64,000 nt of DNA from NCBI RefSeq assembly GCF_023078475.1, contig NZ_CP095741.1, positions 3,534,001 through 3,598,000 of the forward strand, given 5' to 3'. Under the pieces are notes generated by a model, which was not told where the DNA came from, did no database searches, and worked only from the letters and a program-made list of their open reading frames with translations. The stretch's first letter is position 1, and every line of letters begins with the position of its first letter. Origin of the DNA: Luteibacter aegosomaticola. GTDB lineage: Bacteria; Pseudomonadota; Gammaproteobacteria; Xanthomonadales; Rhodanobacteraceae. Positions 40,898 through 50,352 of the stretch are shown piece by piece. A program made the position numbers and the translations under genes.

Positions 40898-41185
40898 ATG
40901 AACATCTCGTTCGAATGGGATGAAGCGAAAGCGGCTGCCAACCTGCGAAAGCACGGCTTGGGATTTTCCACCGCATCAGAGGCCCTCCACGATCGCTGGC
41001 GCTTCGAGCGACTTGATCACCGGGACCACGAAGAGGATCGCTTCACCACCATCGCCGCTCTCAACGGCAACGCGCTCTTCATCGTCTACACGGTTCGCGG
41101 CGACACGATCCGTCTCATATCAGCCCGGGAAGCCACACGCCATGAAGCCCTCCTCTACTGGAAAAACCGTTCGCTACACGTTTGA
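40898..41185 (+). CDS. brnT: BrnT-family type II toxin
   Basis: A 95-residue ribonuclease toxin. The start FEWDEAKAAANLRKHGLGFSTASEALHD and the later EDRFTTIAALNGNALFIVYTVRGDTIRLISAREATRHEALLY are the BrnT signature, including the conserved RLISAR strand and its Arg/His residues. It should cut mRNA and arrest growth when free of BrnA. The antitoxin gene overlaps its 3' end by 44 bases. Confidence 0.92.
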   Translation: MNISFEWDEAKAAANLRKHGLGFSTASEALHDRWRFERLDHRDHEEDRFTTIAALNGNALFIVYTVRGDTIRLISAREATRHEALLYWKNRSLHV

Positions 41186-41468
41186 TCCCGACAAGCCGCG
41201 CGAGCTCACGGCGGAAGAAGTCGCGCAGCTCGAGGCATTGAAGCGTCGGCCCATCGATTTCAGCGACATCCCGCAGCAGCGTATCGATGACACGTGGTAC
41301 ATGCCCGGCCCACTTCGTTCCCTTGAGAACAAGCAGCAGGTCACGCTTCGGATCGACAAAGACGTGCTCGAGTTTTTTCGCGGCACCGGCAAGCGGTACC
41401 AGACGCGGATCAACGAGGTCCTGCGTGAGTACATGAACGCCCACGCCGCACCGGGTCACAAGCGCTAA
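41142..41468 (+). CDS. brnA: BrnA-family antitoxin
   Basis: A 108-residue antitoxin. The N-terminal half (FDPDKPRELTAEEVAQLEAL, FSDIPQQRIDDTWY) should wrap the toxin; the C-terminal QVTLRIDKDVLEFFRGTGKRYQTRINEVLREYM is the ribbon-helix-helix DNA-binding part. ATG 41142, inside the end of brnT, is chosen because it begins the family-like sequence and has a GGGA upstream. Forms a complete type II toxin-antitoxin pair with the dyad at 40878-40893. Confidence 0.9.
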   Translation: MKPSSTGKTVRYTFDPDKPRELTAEEVAQLEALKRRPIDFSDIPQQRIDDTWYMPGPLRSLENKQQVTLRIDKDVLEFFRGTGKRYQTRINEVLREYMNAHAAPGHKR

Positions 41469-41495: not shown

Positions 41496-41524
41496 TTGAC
41501 ATCGCTCCCGCCATGCCACAGCAT
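41496..41524 (+). promoter_or_regulatory. Candidate sigma-70 promoter for the leader/TonB receptor transcript
   Basis: Perfect -35 TTGACA (41496-41501), 17-base spacer, weak -10 CAGCAT (41519-41524). It would start a transcript near 41531, giving a leader of about 310 bases. Confidence 0.45.
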
Positions 41525-41579
41525 GAAAAAACGATCTGGCCGTCCAGACGTCTCACCGGGCCACCCATACGAGGCTTAC

Positions 41580-41669
41580 GTGACCCCGACCAAGCAGCAC
41601 ACCTACAACACGCCCTCCCTGCCGACCACCCTGCTGGTCGCGGCGTGTTGTTGCTGCTGTCGGGCCTAA
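41580..41669 (+). CDS. Poly-cysteine leader peptide (candidate cysteine-responsive attenuator)
   Basis: A 29-codon frame starting GTG at 41580 with GAGG five bases upstream, ending LLVAACCCCCRA then TAA. Residues 23-27 are five consecutive Cys (TGT TGT TGC TGC TGT). The frame continues upstream to an ATG at 41523, but that overlaps the -10 element, so the GTG is preferred. Poly-Cys upstream frames are known attenuators of sulfur genes in mycobacteria; the same logic here would link receptor expression to Cys-tRNA supply. A ribosomally made peptide product is the alternative. Real by layout, function inferred. Confidence 0.6.
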   Translation: MTPTKQHTYNTPSLPTTLLVAACCCCCRA

Positions 41670-41678
41670 GCCGCCCTC

Positions 41679-41702
41679 TGTAGGAGCGCGCTTGCGCGCG
41701 AT
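41679..41702 (+). repeat. REP element in the TonB receptor leader
   Basis: TGTAGGAGCGCGCTTGCGCG followed by CGAT; the core GCGCGC-TT-GCGCGC forms a hairpin ten bases after the stop of the poly-Cys peptide. Confidence 0.85.
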
Positions 41703-41843
41703 CGGCGTCACCTGACCGCCGGTTCTCCTCGCATCCCCCCTCTGTTTCTACAAGCTATCGCCTCCGCGGCGAGCTAGCGTCGTTCGCGTGTGTTTTCGCG
41801 AATGGCGCCGCTTACCCATCGCTCGATCACCAGGATTGCCCCC

Positions 41844-44237
41844 ATGCCGTACGCCCCTCGTCGCCTCGCCCTCCCCCTTCTGATCGCCGCAGCCATCGCT
41901 ACGCCGGTCGCAAGCGCGCAGGAGACGCCCCAGGATCCACAGGCGAAATCGCCCACCCAGCTCGATTCCGTGGTCGTCACTGGCACCCGTTCGGTGAACC
42001 GCAGCCAGGAAAGCTCACTGTCACCCATCGACATCGTGACGGCGAAGGATCTGCAATCCGCAGGCGATACCCAACTGGCCGCCGTCCTGTCCCGCCTGGT
42101 CCCCTCACTGAACTTCCCACGCGCGCCCGGCAACGATGGCTCGGGCATCGTGCGCCCGGCCGCCCTGCGTGGTCTCTCACCCGACCAGACCCTGGTGCTC
42201 GTCAACGGAAAGCGCTGGCACACCACGGCGCTGCTCAACCTGCAGGGCGCGCTGGGTCGCGGCTCCGCGCCGGCTGACCTGAACTCGATTCCCATCTCCG
42301 CCATCGACCATATCGAAGTGCTGCGCGATGGCGCTTCCGCGCAATACGGCTCGGATGCCATCGCTGGCGTCATCAACATCGTGCTCAAGGGTGCGGCGAA
42401 GCCCGGCAGCAATGAAGCCAGCATCACCGCCGGGCGCTACAGCGCGGGCGACGGCAAGCAATGGCAGGGCGAGGCCAGCATTGGCGTGCCGCTCGGCGGC
42501 GATAAAGGCTGGGCGCGGCTGAGCGTCGTCGATGGCCATGCCGATGCCACCAACCGCGGGGGTCGTGATTTCCGCGACCCCACCTCTCCGGTCTACGGCG
42601 AGAAAACCCAGCGCATCGGCGAGCCCGACATCACCAACCACCAGGCGCTGCTGAACGTGCAGTACGCACTGACACCGCATGCCGACTTCTACTCATTCGC
42701 CAGCACCAGTAGCCGCGAGGGCACCTCGCCCGCCCTGTACCGCGCGTATAACAGCACGCGCAACGTCCCTTCGATTTATCCGAATGGGTTCCTCCCGTTG
42801 AACGATGTGCGCTCGATCGACAGTGCGCTCGTGGCCGGTGTCCGCGGCACGACGGAGAGCGGCTGGCGCTGGGATATCAGCGGGAACTATGGGCGGGACC
42901 ACGTCAGTATCGATCCGATCCACACCTTGAACGTCGACCTCGGCGCTGCCAGCCCGACGAGCTTCAACGCCGGCCGGCTCGTTTCCACGCAGAAGGCCTT
43001 CGACATCGACATCGCCAAGGATGTTTCGGTCGGCTGGTTGCAGAATCCGGTCACGGTGGCGTTCGGTGTGGAATATCTCTACCAGCGCTACGGCATCGAG
43101 GCGGGCGACCCGGCGTCGTACTACGGCACGGGTTCACAGGGCTTCCCCGGCTTTACGCCAGGCGATTCCGGCTACCACTCGCGACACGATGTCGCCGAGT
43201 ACGTCAGCCTGGAGAACCAGATCACCGACAAGCTCAGCGGTTCGCTTGCCATCCGCCACGAGGACTACACCGACTTCGGTAATACGACGTCGGGCACGCT
43301 CTCGGCCCGCTACGACTTCACCGATACCTTCGCCCTGCGCGGCACCGCCGGCACGGGCTTCCGCGCCCCATCGCTCGCGCAGCAGTTCTACACGACGACG
43401 TCAACGAACGTGATTGGCGGCGTACCCACGCAGATCCGCAACTTCGCGGTAAGCGACCCGGTGGCGCAGGCGCTCGGCGCGGAATCGCTGAAGGCGGAGA
43501 AATCGCACAATTACACGCTAGGCGCGACGTACCTGCCTGGCGCCTGGACGTTCTCCCTTGATGTCTACCAGATCACGATCGGTGACCGTGTCGTGCCGTC
43601 GGAGAATCTGGTTGGTGACGACGTACAGGCGTACCTCACCAGCCAGGGCTACGCGAACATCCAGGGCGGCAGCTACTTCACCAATGCATTGAAGACACGC
43701 ACGCGCGGCGTCGACTTCAGCAGCGGCTACCGGCTTGATCTCGGTGCGTCGGGCGTCTGGCAGTTCACGGCGGCATACAACCGCAACCACACCACGATCC
43801 TCTCAGTGGCACCGAACCCGCCGCAGCTCGCGCAGAACGGACTCGAGCTCGTCCGCGTCGGCCATATCGCGCAGGGCTACATCACCGATGGCGCGCCGCG
43901 TGACAAGATCGCGCTAGGTAGCGACTACACCCTCGGCGACTGGGCGTTCCACGGCACCCTCACCCGCTACGGCCAGTTCCGGCAGAATCAGGATCCCGTG
44001 AGCAATCCCGGCTATGACCAGACCTTCCCAGCGCGTTGGCTGCTCGATCTTTCCGCGAACTACAACGTCGATGGCTGGACGTTCACCGCGGGCGTCGACA
44101 ATCTCACGAACGTCTATCCGCAGAGGTACAAAGCGGGGAGCGATGGTGCGGTGGGCGGTACGTGGCCGTACCCGGACTACTCGCCGTTTGGTTATAGCGG
44201 GCGTTATCTGTACACGCGCGTGGCGTATCGTTGGTAG
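41844..44237 (+). CDS. TonB-dependent outer-membrane receptor
   Basis: A 797-residue 22-strand barrel importer energised by TonB. Signal peptide 1-25 (LPLLIAAAIATPVASA), TonB-box-like DSVVVTGTRSV, plug domain to about residue 180 (VRPAALRGLSPDQTLVLVNGKRWHTTALLN, GRGSAPADLNSIPISAIDHIEVLRDGASAQYGSDAIAGVINIV), barrel ending in the aromatic RVAYRW. Ligand unknown; the poly-Cys leader suggests a sulfur-containing substrate. ATG 41844 has AGGA upstream and gives a clean signal peptide, preferred to in-frame starts at 41790 and 41802. Confidence 0.94.
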   Translation: MPYAPRRLALPLLIAAAIATPVASAQETPQDPQAKSPTQLDSVVVTGTRSVNRSQESSLSPIDIVTAKDLQSAGDTQLAAVLSRLVPSLNFPRAPGNDGSGIVRPAALRGLSPDQTLVLVNGKRWHTTALLNLQGALGRGSAPADLNSIPISAIDHIEVLRDGASAQYGSDAIAGVINIVLKGAAKPGSNEASITAGRYSAGDGKQWQGEASIGVPLGGDKGWARLSVVDGHADATNRGGRDFRDPTSPVYGEKTQRIGEPDITNHQALLNVQYALTPHADFYSFASTSSREGTSPALYRAYNSTRNVPSIYPNGFLPLNDVRSIDSALVAGVRGTTESGWRWDISGNYGRDHVSIDPIHTLNVDLGAASPTSFNAGRLVSTQKAFDIDIAKDVSVGWLQNPVTVAFGVEYLYQRYGIEAGDPASYYGTGSQGFPGFTPGDSGYHSRHDVAEYVSLENQITDKLSGSLAIRHEDYTDFGNTTSGTLSARYDFTDTFALRGTAGTGFRAPSLAQQFYTTTSTNVIGGVPTQIRNFAVSDPVAQALGAESLKAEKSHNYTLGATYLPGAWTFSLDVYQITIGDRVVPSENLVGDDVQAYLTSQGYANIQGGSYFTNALKTRTRGVDFSSGYRLDLGASGVWQFTAAYNRNHTTILSVAPNPPQLAQNGLELVRVGHIAQGYITDGAPRDKIALGSDYTLGDWAFHGTLTRYGQFRQNQDPVSNPGYDQTFPARWLLDLSANYNVDGWTFTAGVDNLTNVYPQRYKAGSDGAVGGTWPYPDYSPFGYSGRYLYTRVAYRW

Positions 44238-45579: not shown

Positions 45580-45631
45580 TTGGCGGGCTTCGGCCCCATC
45601 CTTAGTATCTCTGTATCGCGATGAAAGGATG
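45580..45631 (+). promoter_or_regulatory. Candidate promoter and SahR operator before the regulator-metH genes
   Basis: TTGGCG (45580), 17-base spacer, TAGTAT (45603-45608). Overlapping it are an inverted repeat CATCCTT (45597-45603)/AAGGATG (45625-45631) and the palindrome ATCGCGAT (45615-45622). This fits autorepression by the first gene. Confidence 0.45.
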
Positions 45632-45635
45632 TGGG

Positions 45636-46562
45636 ATGGATCTGTCGACGGCCTCGACGGTGTTGCGGCTGCTCGCCGACCCCACGCGTGTGCGGCTTCT
45701 AGCCCTGCTCGATCGCGAGGAACTGACCGTGGCCGAGCTGGCCGCGGTGCTCCACCTGGCCCAGCCGCGCGTCTCAACGCACCTTGCGAAACTCAAGGAA
45801 GCCGAGCTCGTCCGCGACCGCCGCGCTGGCGTGTCGGCCTATTATCGCGCGAACACCGAAGCCGACCCTACGCTGATCGCGCTGGTCGGGTCGCTGCGCG
45901 ACACCCTGAGCGATGCCCTGCTCCGGGAAGACGCCGAGCGCCTTCCCGCCGTGCTGGCCCAGCGTGCCAGTACCGAGGGTTGGGCTGACACCGTGGCGGG
46001 CGACATGGAACGCCACTACTCCCCGGGCCGTACCTGGGAAACCCTGGCGCGCTCCCTGCTCCAGCTGCTTGAGACCGGCGACGTACTGGATATCGCGTCG
46101 GGCGATGGCGTCACTGCCGAGCTCCTGGCGCCTCACGCCCACGCCATCCTGTGCATCGACAGTTCGGAGCGCGTCGTCGACGCAGCCCGACAGCGCCTGG
46201 CGCAGTTCACCAACGTCGAAGTGCGCCAGGGCGACATGCACCAGCTCGACCTCGGCGAACGTCGCTTCGATCTTGTGCTGATGATGCACGCCCTCACCTA
46301 CGCCGAGCGTCCGGCCGATGTGTTCCGCCAGGTCGCCAGCGTACTCAAGTCGGGCGGCCGTGTGCTCGCCGTGACCCTTGGCGAACACGATCACCGCGCC
46401 GTCGTTGAACCCTTCGACCACCGCAACCTCGGCTTCAGCCGCGACGGCCTGATCGGCATGGCGCGCGACGCCGGCCTGGATGTCGTCAGTTGCGACCGCC
46501 TGAGCCGCGAACGCCGCGCTCCCCATTTCGAAGTCATCAGCCTGCTTGCGCGCAAGCCCTGA
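45636..46562 (+). CDS. ArsR-type regulator fused to a SAM-methyltransferase-like domain (SahR-like)
   Basis: A 308-residue protein: an N-terminal winged helix ([51 protein letters not shown], about residues 8-60) and a class I methyltransferase fold ([19 protein letters not shown], then [27 protein letters not shown]). SahR repressors of the SAM cycle have this layout and sense S-adenosylhomocysteine in the methylase-like domain. Direct linkage to metH 11 bases downstream supports that role; binding specificity is inferred. ATG 45636 with AAAGGA upstream. Confidence 0.88.
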
Positions 46563-46573
46563 CAGGAGGCCCC

Positions 46574-47652
46574 ATGAGCACCCTTCCCTGGCTCCACCCC
46601 GAGCGCGTCGCCCTGATCCAGAAGGGCCTCGCCGAACGCATCATGATCCTCGACGGCGGCATGGGCACCATGCTGCAGAACCATAAACTCGACGAGGGCG
46701 GCTACCGTGGCGAACGCTTCGCCGGCGGCCACGACAGTACGCATGACCATGGCCACGACCACCCGGGCGAGTGCGATCTGAAGGGCAACAACGACCTGCT
46801 GCTGCTAACGCAGCCGGCGATCATCCAGGGCGTGCACAAGGCCTACCTGGACGCAGGCGCGGATTTCATCGAGACCAACACGTTCAATGCCACGCGCGTG
46901 AGCCAGGCGGATTACCACCTGGAACACCTCGTGCCCGAGCTGAACCGCGAGGGCGCGCGGCTGGCCCGTGAGGTGTGTGATGCCATGACCCTGAAGACGC
47001 CGGAAAAGCCGCGCTTCGTCATCGGTGTGATCGGCCCCACCAGCCGCACCGCCTCAATCTCGCCCGACGTGAACGACCCCGGCTTCCGCAACGTCAGTTT
47101 CGAAGAGCTCAAGACCAACTACATCGAAGCGGCTCGTGCCCTGATCGAAGGCGGTGCCGATACGATCATGGTGGAAACCATCTTCGACACGCTCAATGCG
47201 AAGGCCGCGCTATTCGCCCTCGCCGAGCTGTTTGAACAGATGGGCGCCCGCGTCCCGGTGATGATCTCAGGCACGATCACCGACCGCTCCGGCCGCACGC
47301 TCTCGGGCCAGACGGCCGAAGCGTTCTTCTACTCGGTCGAACACATCCAGCCGCTCTCCGTGGGCCTGAACTGCGCGCTCGGCGCCGAGGACCTGCGCCC
47401 GCACGTCAGCATGCTCGCGCGCATCGCCAATGCTGCCGTCAGCACGCACCCGAACGCAGGCCTGCCCAACGCGTTCGGCGAGTACGACGAATCGCCCGAG
47501 AGCATGGCGGCGACGATCCGCAGCTTTGCCGCGGATGGCCTGATCAACATCGTGGGTGGCTGTTGTGGCACCACGCCCGCCCATATCGCGGCGATCGCCG
47601 CTGCCGTGGCGCCGTACGCGCCCCGCGCACCCAAGAGCACAGCTGAAGCCGC

Positions 47653-47656
<4 letters not shown>
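46574..47656 (+). CDS. metH: Methionine synthase, homocysteine-binding half (split MetH)
   Basis: A 360-residue zinc-dependent homocysteine S-methyltransferase domain corresponding to the first module of MetH. Visible: [48 protein letters not shown] and the zinc thiols in [10 protein letters not shown] and GGCCGTTP. A His-rich loop (residues 51-66, [16 protein letters not shown]) is inserted where E. coli MetH has a short turn. AGGAGG precedes ATG 46574. Its TGA overlaps the start of the second half by four bases, so the two parts are made together and must associate. Confidence 0.95.

Positions 47657-50348
<2,692 letters not shown>

Positions 50349-50352
<4 letters not shown>

Follow-up and report, generated by a model that had tools for sequence, protein, structure and literature searches.

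The window (the whole 64,000-nt stretch of DNA analysed, G000:C1:3534001-3598000, from a 5.09-Mb genome in one contig) contains a gene for a TonB-dependent receptor, preceded by a promoter, a pair of MetJ-type boxes and a short open reading frame (ORF) that ends in a run of cysteine codons (Table 1). The 3′ codons of this ORF are ...GCG GCG TGT TGT TGC TGC TGT CGG GCC TAA, and its peptide would end in AACCCCCRA. An earlier sequence-only reading had described the 29-codon frame, its ribosome site, its five Cys codons followed by CGG GCC TAA and a TTGACA −35 element just 5′ of the leader; each is there in the sequence, and the −35 element is kept in 15/15 orthologues. The predicted transcription start lies about 50 nt 5′ of the GTG start codon and a Shine-Dalgarno (SD)-like site is present, so the leader ORF would not be leaderless.

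Table 1 Features of the leader and receptor locus, in window positions
Feature	Position	Strand	Basis and occurrence
−35 element TTGACA	41496..41501	+	Sequence; TTGACA with CAGCAT/GAGCAT in 15/15 orthologues
−10-like CAGCAT, 17 nt 3′ of the −35 element	41519..41524	+	Spacing 17 nt in 14/15 orthologues, 18 nt in L023
Two tandem MetJ-type boxes, GGCCGTCC AGACGTCT	41538..41553	+	1 mismatch to the tandem pattern
SD-like GAGG for the leader ORF	41571..41574	+	Sequence; GAGG, GGAG or GGGG within 20 nt 5′ of the start in 13/15 orthologues
Leader ORF, 29 codons, GTG start (VTPTKQHTYNTPSLPTTLLVAACCCCCRA)	41580..41669	+	Sequence; frame and tail kept in 15/15 orthologues
Hairpin over the Cys codons	41594..41657	+	Helices 41594-41599/41652-41657, 41606-41614/41642-41650 and 41625-41628/41635-41638
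Five-Cys codon run, TGT TGT TGC TGC TGT	41646..41660	+	Read from the sequence
C-rich spacer, leader stop to receptor; possible Rho entry region	41670..41843	+	C > G in 15/15 spacers; Rho role predicted
REP-type hairpin	41680..41703	+	Sequence; 4/15 orthologues
TonB-dependent receptor, 797 aa, putative controlled gene	41844..44237	+	Plug and TonB_dep_Rec_b-barrel

The close relatives of the receptor that carry a name come from Luteibacter (8 loci at 82–90% identity), which assigns the window to this genus of the family Rhodanobacteraceae. The neighbours of the receptor in the PDB (PirA, CirA, BtuB, FepA and others) are so remote that they point to no particular substrate. Directly 5′ of the leader promoter lie genes for a BrnT toxin (40898-41185) and a BrnA antitoxin (41205-41468). 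One orthologue (L011) instead has the end of an RND pump gene at this place, without BrnT/BrnA, and another (L043) seems to hold a BrnA-like frame, both as judged by eye. The receptor neighbours vary among Luteibacter genomes (L043-L050) while promoter and leader stay constant, as if the receptor moved as a cassette. Close 3′ of the window receptor (45621-50352) are a SamR-like ArsR-methyltransferase gene and then metH1 and metH2, which encode a split methionine synthase. A gene for an SfnG/SsuD-like luciferase-family monooxygenase is convergent with the receptor in two further genomes of Luteibacter (L049:8369-9397, minus strand, and L046); one of these two loci was scanned, and the likeness to sfnG/ssuD lies below curated cut-offs. 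An endohyphal Luteibacter strain is reported to be unable to use sulfate; its growth is supported by cysteine, by methionine, by thiosulfate at high levels or by the fungal host (PMC9040847). This strain and the sfnG/ssuD-like neighbour fit import of organic sulfur.

A search for the receptor in 61 genomes gave matches in 42, and the 15 loci that form a clade at 83–100% identity, all from Luteibacter, make up our orthologue set; 2 of these 15 receptor genes carry an in-frame stop. Conservation of the frame and the Cys run upstream of orthologous receptors, proposed in the sequence-only reading as a check, is found in 15/15 loci: the last 12 leader residues always include at least three (3–5) Cys, not always consecutive, with Arg and other residues interspersed. 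The tails are CCCCCRA, CCCRCRS, CCCRCMG, CCCRRTPCCRG, CCRCMA, CCCCCRA, CCCGCRS, CCCCRTA (twice), CCCRRTA, CCCCPA, SCCCRR, CCCCRLA, CRCCRS and SCLCCRR; that of L012 (G013), CCCRRTPCCRG, has two Cys clusters. The peptides are 25–33 residues long, and 99–203 nt separate the leader stop from the receptor ATG. The start codon differs among orthologues (GTG, TTG or ATG) and the residues outside the tail drift, the pattern expected if the control codons alone matter. The 29-residue peptide matches no Pfam or NCBIfam family, and the Rfam families found in the window are tRNAs only, with two matches in the leader region, both far below cut-offs. Two features of a ribosome-mediated leader peptide are present: a short ORF with a ribosome site and predicted translation, and conserved control codons, clustered and all specifying the same amino acid. 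Start codon, ribosome site and conserved frame together suggest that the ORF is translated.

Between promoter and leader, the locus carries a second candidate control element. A MetJ site consists of tandem AGACGTCT met boxes, as described by Leyn 2014 (PMC4239095), and the best box pair 3′ of the promoter scores 13–16 of 16 in 15/15 orthologues, against 9–11 in spacer stretches of equal length; a score of at least 13 arose in 1 of 300 shuffles. MetJ (PF01340) is encoded in the window's genome and in 12 of 13 Luteibacter genomes (one sample); at family level, 146 of 147 genomes have it. The published account of the MetJ regulon assigns MetJ to six groups of Gammaproteobacteria, whereas the four Xanthomonadales genomes that it covers have SamR, beside metH1/metH2 in Xanthomonas; the word TonB is absent from its main text (PMC4239095). 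The window promoter resembles that regulon in carrying at least two tandem AGACGTCT-type boxes in a genome that encodes MetJ. It is unlike the regulon as described there in that a leader peptide accompanies the boxes and in that the genome has MetJ, although the Xanthomonadales of that study had SamR (PMC4239095). From the boxes and the presence of MetJ, we predict that MetJ binds and represses the window promoter.

Across the window's genome, the tandem-box pattern with up to 2 mismatches occurs 38 times compared with 25 for a reversed-pattern control, an excess so modest that the box pattern by itself is weak. Seven distinct places have one mismatch; five of these precede the window receptor, two Oar-type receptors, a gene for cysteine synthase A and a third paralogue of the receptor, and a two-mismatch pair lies directly 5′ of the likely start of a MetQ lipoprotein gene, the start sites of box-adjacent genes having been judged by eye. 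A further met-box pair (L069, G000:C1:840665), possibly marking another MetJ target, is flanked by an MFS symporter gene and, on the other side, by a divergent gene whose unnamed product looks exported.

The leader is not confined to the clade of the window receptor. We built one covariance model (R1) from the 15 first-set leaders and another (R2) from 13 leaders of a second receptor family, each matching its own members by construction. R1 found two further strong copies, G019:C18:169086 (61.1 bits; tail GAYCCCRRV) and G010:C1:2022798 (52.9 bits; tail GACRCCCRG), which have the same promoter and met-box pair; in both, this module of promoter, boxes and leader precedes an Oar-type receptor (Plug and CarboxypepD_reg). 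Single further cases stand before an Oar-type receptor in G002 (AARCCCRRR) and a Plug-domain receptor in G015 (ASCCRCCR), bringing the Cys leaders before Oar-type receptors to three (G019, G010 and G002). The receptors of the second family are 44–46% identical to the window receptor and have weak R1 matches upstream. A leader frame is present at 14/14 of their loci, with a tail of at least three Cys in 13/14 (for example, PRCFVVRACCCCLG) and just two tail Cys in G005. Since the R1 scores of 24–37 bits mean little alone, these leaders rest on position, tail and R2, which finds the leader in 15/23 Luteibacter genomes; 13 of these supplied the model, and the new ones are G014 and G007, the latter cut by a contig end. 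By eye, the other weak R1 matches (L116, L118-L121, L125, L127-L141 and L143-L150) showed no convincing leader.

A third receptor paralogue (G000:C1:1328274-1330697; L225-L234) has GGACGTCC ATACGNCY in 8 of 10 fetched loci and no conserved Cys leader across the same 10. Only the window's genome and G008 have an ORF there with ACGRCC close to the end, possibly a weak leader. Boxes without a conserved Cys leader at this paralogue indicate that the two control modules are separable.

The clearest pointer to what the leader reads comes from a gene of the other membrane. R2 matched G016:C6:111018-111116 (42.3 bits, E 1.9e-7), 111 nt 5′ of a permease gene whose product shares 72% identity with E. 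coli CyuP over 429 residues, compared with 27% for SdaC and 25% for TdcC, making CyuP the nearest of the three. E. coli CyuP is annotated as an L-cysteine importer, and experiments describe it as cysteine-specific (PMC9040844). Genes for CyuP relatives occur in 3 of the 61 genomes searched (G016, G017 and G028), the window's own genome giving no match. They follow leaders in G016 (PCRLVGRSCCRRHG) and G017 (PCRAGGRSCCRPC; 129-nt spacer, only 23.2 bits), two related species; G028, from another genus, has the CyuP relative without such a leader. In G016 (L261, L262), a cupin-like gene comes next after the CyuP relative, and no cyuA-like desulfidase was noticed by eye in the stretch. Because the function of the CyuP relative is close to known, no other single observation points as well to cysteine as what the leader reads. 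E. coli CyuP is, however, cysteine-induced and has a catabolic role (PMC9040844), and a shortage signal fits it less well. Membership of the cysteine-supply class fits the CyuP relative in two species, and for the receptors, the window's included, it is suggested by the MetJ-type boxes. The earlier prediction that the window receptor imports a sulfur compound gains independent support from these boxes, from MetJ in the genome and from the related leaders before the CyuP relative, although its substrate is a prediction from context.

Several observations bear on whether such tails arise by chance. First, we collected start-bearing ORFs from the 450 nt 5′ of each of the 64 plug-bearing receptors in the window's genome. 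A strict rule (at least 4 Cys in the last 6 residues) gave 2 matches on the coding strand, 0 on the reverse strand and a mean of 0.0 over 5 shuffles; the two, from 2/64 receptors, are the window leader and one second, likewise conserved. Looser rules had controls that were not clean: 3 Cys in 12 gave 4 forward, 5 reverse and 1.0 shuffled, and 4 Cys in 10 gave 2, 1 and 0.0, respectively. A genome-wide search for the Cys-tail pattern was uninformative (404 matches versus 410 for the reversed control), so the window's genome may hold leaders of other sequence elsewhere.

Second, the choice of codons is unusual. TGT is the rare Cys codon, with 25 of 156 in 30 gene-like ORFs of the window (TGC 131), yet it is the majority codon in leader tails: 43 of 58 in the first set (TGC 15), 21 versus 10 TGC with the first two tail codons omitted, and, at the ends of the second-family leaders (n = 13), 40 of 48 (TGC 8). 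The P value for the TGT preference (2e-15) overstates its significance because the orthologue rows are related.

Third, the tail coincides with a hairpin. The sequence-only reading had placed a hairpin before the Cys codons; the hairpin exists, but its 3′ arm (41642-41650) overlaps the codons instead of merely lying 5′ of them, and its outer helix covers further Cys codons. In the first set, 92.2% of cells pair compared with 85.8% in shuffles, cells with changes on both sides number 20 against a shuffled mean of 7.9, and shifting the hairpin partners lowers pairing to 17–60%. Two of five covariation measures were weaker: pairs with two-sided change (5 versus 3.1, reached by 32 of 500 shuffles) and further pair types (16 versus 14.3, reached by 65 of 500). 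The hairpin of the second-family leaders shows no covariation. Because hairpin and Cys codons overlap, either could partly account for the other.

This overlap raises the possibility that the conserved element is RNA alone, a hairpin whose 3′ arm merely reads as Cys codons in an untranslated frame. The covariation in the first family and the two helices over the Cys codons would be expected of such an element, as would the codon positions, which show no third-position excess of changes in either count of differences among aligned leaders (177/181/112 and 667/755/580 for the three positions). The absence of that excess means that no selection is seen on the entire peptide as a protein, the tail alone being conserved. 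The frame nevertheless behaves as if it were read: every alignment gap within it is of 3 bases (15/15 orthologues), an SD-like motif precedes the start in 13/15, and an in-frame stop follows shortly 3′ of the tail in every leader set, with the caveat that the frame was picked for its tail. The second family moreover retains the Cys tail without covariation, L114 keeps RCCCRRR, and L012 has gained its second Cys pair. A hairpin acting without translation appears improbable on these points taken together, and we favour a translated leader that a hairpin covers.

How a ribosome on the leader would affect the receptor is less sharply defined. The sequence-only reading had proposed that stalling alters downstream folding or Rho access. 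For folding at the receptor ribosome site, a modelled ribosome on the Cys codons changed access by at most 0.05 in 11/15 orthologues, by +0.09–0.14 in 3 and by −0.11 in 1, with no consistent direction across the 15; an SD-sequestering switch was rejected on this basis, and the proposed effect on folding is not supported consistently. Nor was a conserved intrinsic terminator found; one weak terminator-like site lies on the coding strand 3′ of the leader in the window and is not conserved, as judged by eye. Neither a conserved pair of mutually exclusive terminator and antiterminator structures nor a consistent SD-sequestering switch was seen. The REP hairpin noted 3′ of the stop is real in the window but conserved in just 4/15 orthologues, which makes it an unlikely part of the device, and we rejected it as a component of a switch.

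The property shared by all 15 spacers is an excess of C over G. Because the CruR system, on which Rho acts, has the same property, Rho would be the favoured second step, and a Rho-dependent variant of leader control is possible; as the output of leader control, we place Rho a little short of an even chance. Rho could also act in the opposite sense. Fluent translation of the Cys codons might be what the receptor needs, so that shortage lowers its expression, or the leader might be a constitutive upstream ORF (uORF) with no response to cysteine. In several rows, C is abundant within the leader too, the best C-over-G window beginning inside it in 6/15, and a ribosome on the 3′ arm would free the 5′ arm and could admit Rho on stalling; the cysteine induction of E. 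coli CyuP (PMC9040844) points the same way. Against this, importers with MetJ-type boxes would be expected to rise on shortage, and the Cys leaders described in Actinobacteria precede cysteine supply genes (PMC1262725). We regard a leader of opposite sign, or one indifferent to cysteine, as very improbable, and retain induction by shortage.

The leader appears to be restricted to Luteibacter. R1 run on 147 genomes of the family and 299 of the order (overlapping, evenly drawn samples, with stricter filters) gave no credible match outside the genus, the best having E 1.3e-5. Five R1 places of family f2 were translated and, by eye, are pieces of membrane-protein genes, L244 with Cys-rich stops in other frames; a sixth (L242) was read as DNA only, a place in G163 was read as well, and none of these places looks like a start-bearing leader before an uptake gene. 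In another genus (G071, L142), a weak R1 match with the tail PPRCCCCPA adjoins a downstream gene unlike an importer. Receptor relatives in Dyella and Fulvimonas (L051-L055) and at L024-L028, two Luteibacter genomes among them, have met-box-like pairs near the ATG and no Cys tail. Box pairs without the tail in these relatives make the leader look like a lineage addition.

In the classical trp, his and ilv attenuators of enterobacteria, control codons for the relevant amino acid lie in a leader that overlaps an RNA hairpin. The Luteibacter leader is alike in its control codons overlapping a hairpin and unlike in having no conserved intrinsic terminator/antiterminator pair. Its closest functional parallel is in Actinobacteria, where Cys-run leaders were predicted before the cys operons of Mycobacterium and P. 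acnes and before cbs of B. longum, with Rho suggested (Seliverstov 2005, PMC1262725), and where cysteine-responsive, leaderless short ORFs were described in mycobacteria (Canestrari 2020). Shared features are a short ORF, Cys codons beside the stop, the absence of a conserved terminator and the suggested role of Rho (PMC1262725). The Actinobacterial leaders belong to another phylum, are reportedly leaderless (Canestrari 2020) and lie 5′ of cysteine supply genes, namely cys operons and cbs (PMC1262725); here, that gene class is represented by the CyuP relative only. The Luteibacter leader has an upstream promoter, an SD-like site, a covarying hairpin over the Cys codons and MetJ-type boxes, and the genes that it precedes encode outer-membrane receptors and a CyuP-type permease.

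In position, the parallel is CruR, a copper-sensing DUF2946 uORF protein encoded before a TonB transporter (PMC9426467, PMC12914433). The system before bfrG/crtA in Bordetella is alike in having a Cys-bearing uORF 5′ of a TonB-dependent transporter, a C>G bubble and Rho-dependent control; it differs in that CruR has about 145 residues, a CXXC motif and a C-terminal RAPP arrest motif and senses copper, whereas the Luteibacter leader has 25–33 residues, lacks those motifs and lies beside sulfur regulation (PMC9426467). Identity with the CruR/DUF2946 copper uORFs was rejected, there being no Pfam or NCBIfam match and no conserved CXXC or RAPP in the aligned peptides. The sequence-only reading knew of no described case for a TonB receptor; a Cys-motif uORF before a TonB transporter is known for copper (CruR-bfrG, PMC9426467), but CruR is not poly-Cys. 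Among the matches listed in a search of the open PMC literature, no TonB receptor was preceded by a poly-Cys leader, and Gammaproteobacteria had no such leader at all. By analogy, the Luteibacter leader would work like the Actinobacterial leaders and sit like CruR, agreeing with neither in details.

The CruR precedent of Rho-dependent control of a TonB transporter with a C>G bubble (PMC9426467) suggests a further reading, in which sensing falls to the nascent peptide: the Cys cluster at its C terminus would bind a metal (copper, zinc or iron) or sense thiol oxidation and alter release of the ribosome. Such a Cys cluster could bind metal. The number and spacing of Cys vary, however (CCCCC, CCCRC, CRCC, SCLCC), a metal site would give no reason to prefer the rare TGT codon, the leader has no family match and no conserved CXXC or RAPP, and it keeps company with MetJ-type boxes and a CyuP relative. 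We consider a peptide sensor unlikely, and prefer a leader read through its codons.

On the evidence above, it is likely that the window receptor is governed by a leader peptide that responds to cysteine, added on top of control by SAM and MetJ. In a first stage, SAM-loaded MetJ on the tandem boxes just 3′ of the promoter would shut the promoter when methionine and SAM are plentiful. In a second stage, the rare Cys codons at the leader end would gauge the supply of charged tRNA-Cys. With ample cysteine, the ribosome would run off the leader and transcription would end, most likely by Rho in the C-rich spacer; alternatively, the receptor would be poorly made. With cysteine short, the ribosome would stall on the Cys codons, open the hairpin that covers them and shield the mRNA, so that the receptor is expressed and could import a sulfur compound across the outer membrane. 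Stalling at low charged tRNA-Cys is suggested by the tail, the TGT preference and the CyuP relative, and relief of Rho-dependent termination would be the least certain step of the mechanism. Induction by shortage, the response to cysteine, tRNA-Cys as the signal and the nature of the substrate are likewise predictions.

Through the Cys leader, the cell can probably adjust its uptake of sulfur to the ease with which ribosomes obtain cysteine. More broadly, the evidence inclines us, by a modest degree, to see an exchangeable Luteibacter cysteine-leader module that forms a small cysteine-limitation regulon across both membranes, comprising several receptor families and, in some species, a CyuP-type importer. 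Stacked on MetJ, as here, it would act as a SAM-and-cysteine gate on one transcript; by our searches, no poly-Cys attenuator would have been known before in Gammaproteobacteria or on uptake at the outer membrane, and the genus in question includes an organic-sulfur-dependent strain. If this is true, Cys-codon leaders are not confined to Actinobacteria, and ribosome-read control governs the import of organic sulfur at the outer membrane. The leader would then serve as a searchable functional tag for TonB receptors that carry sulfur compounds, and would give a handle on how bacteria that do not use sulfate, such as the endohyphal Luteibacter strain (PMC9040847), may obtain sulfur from their host.
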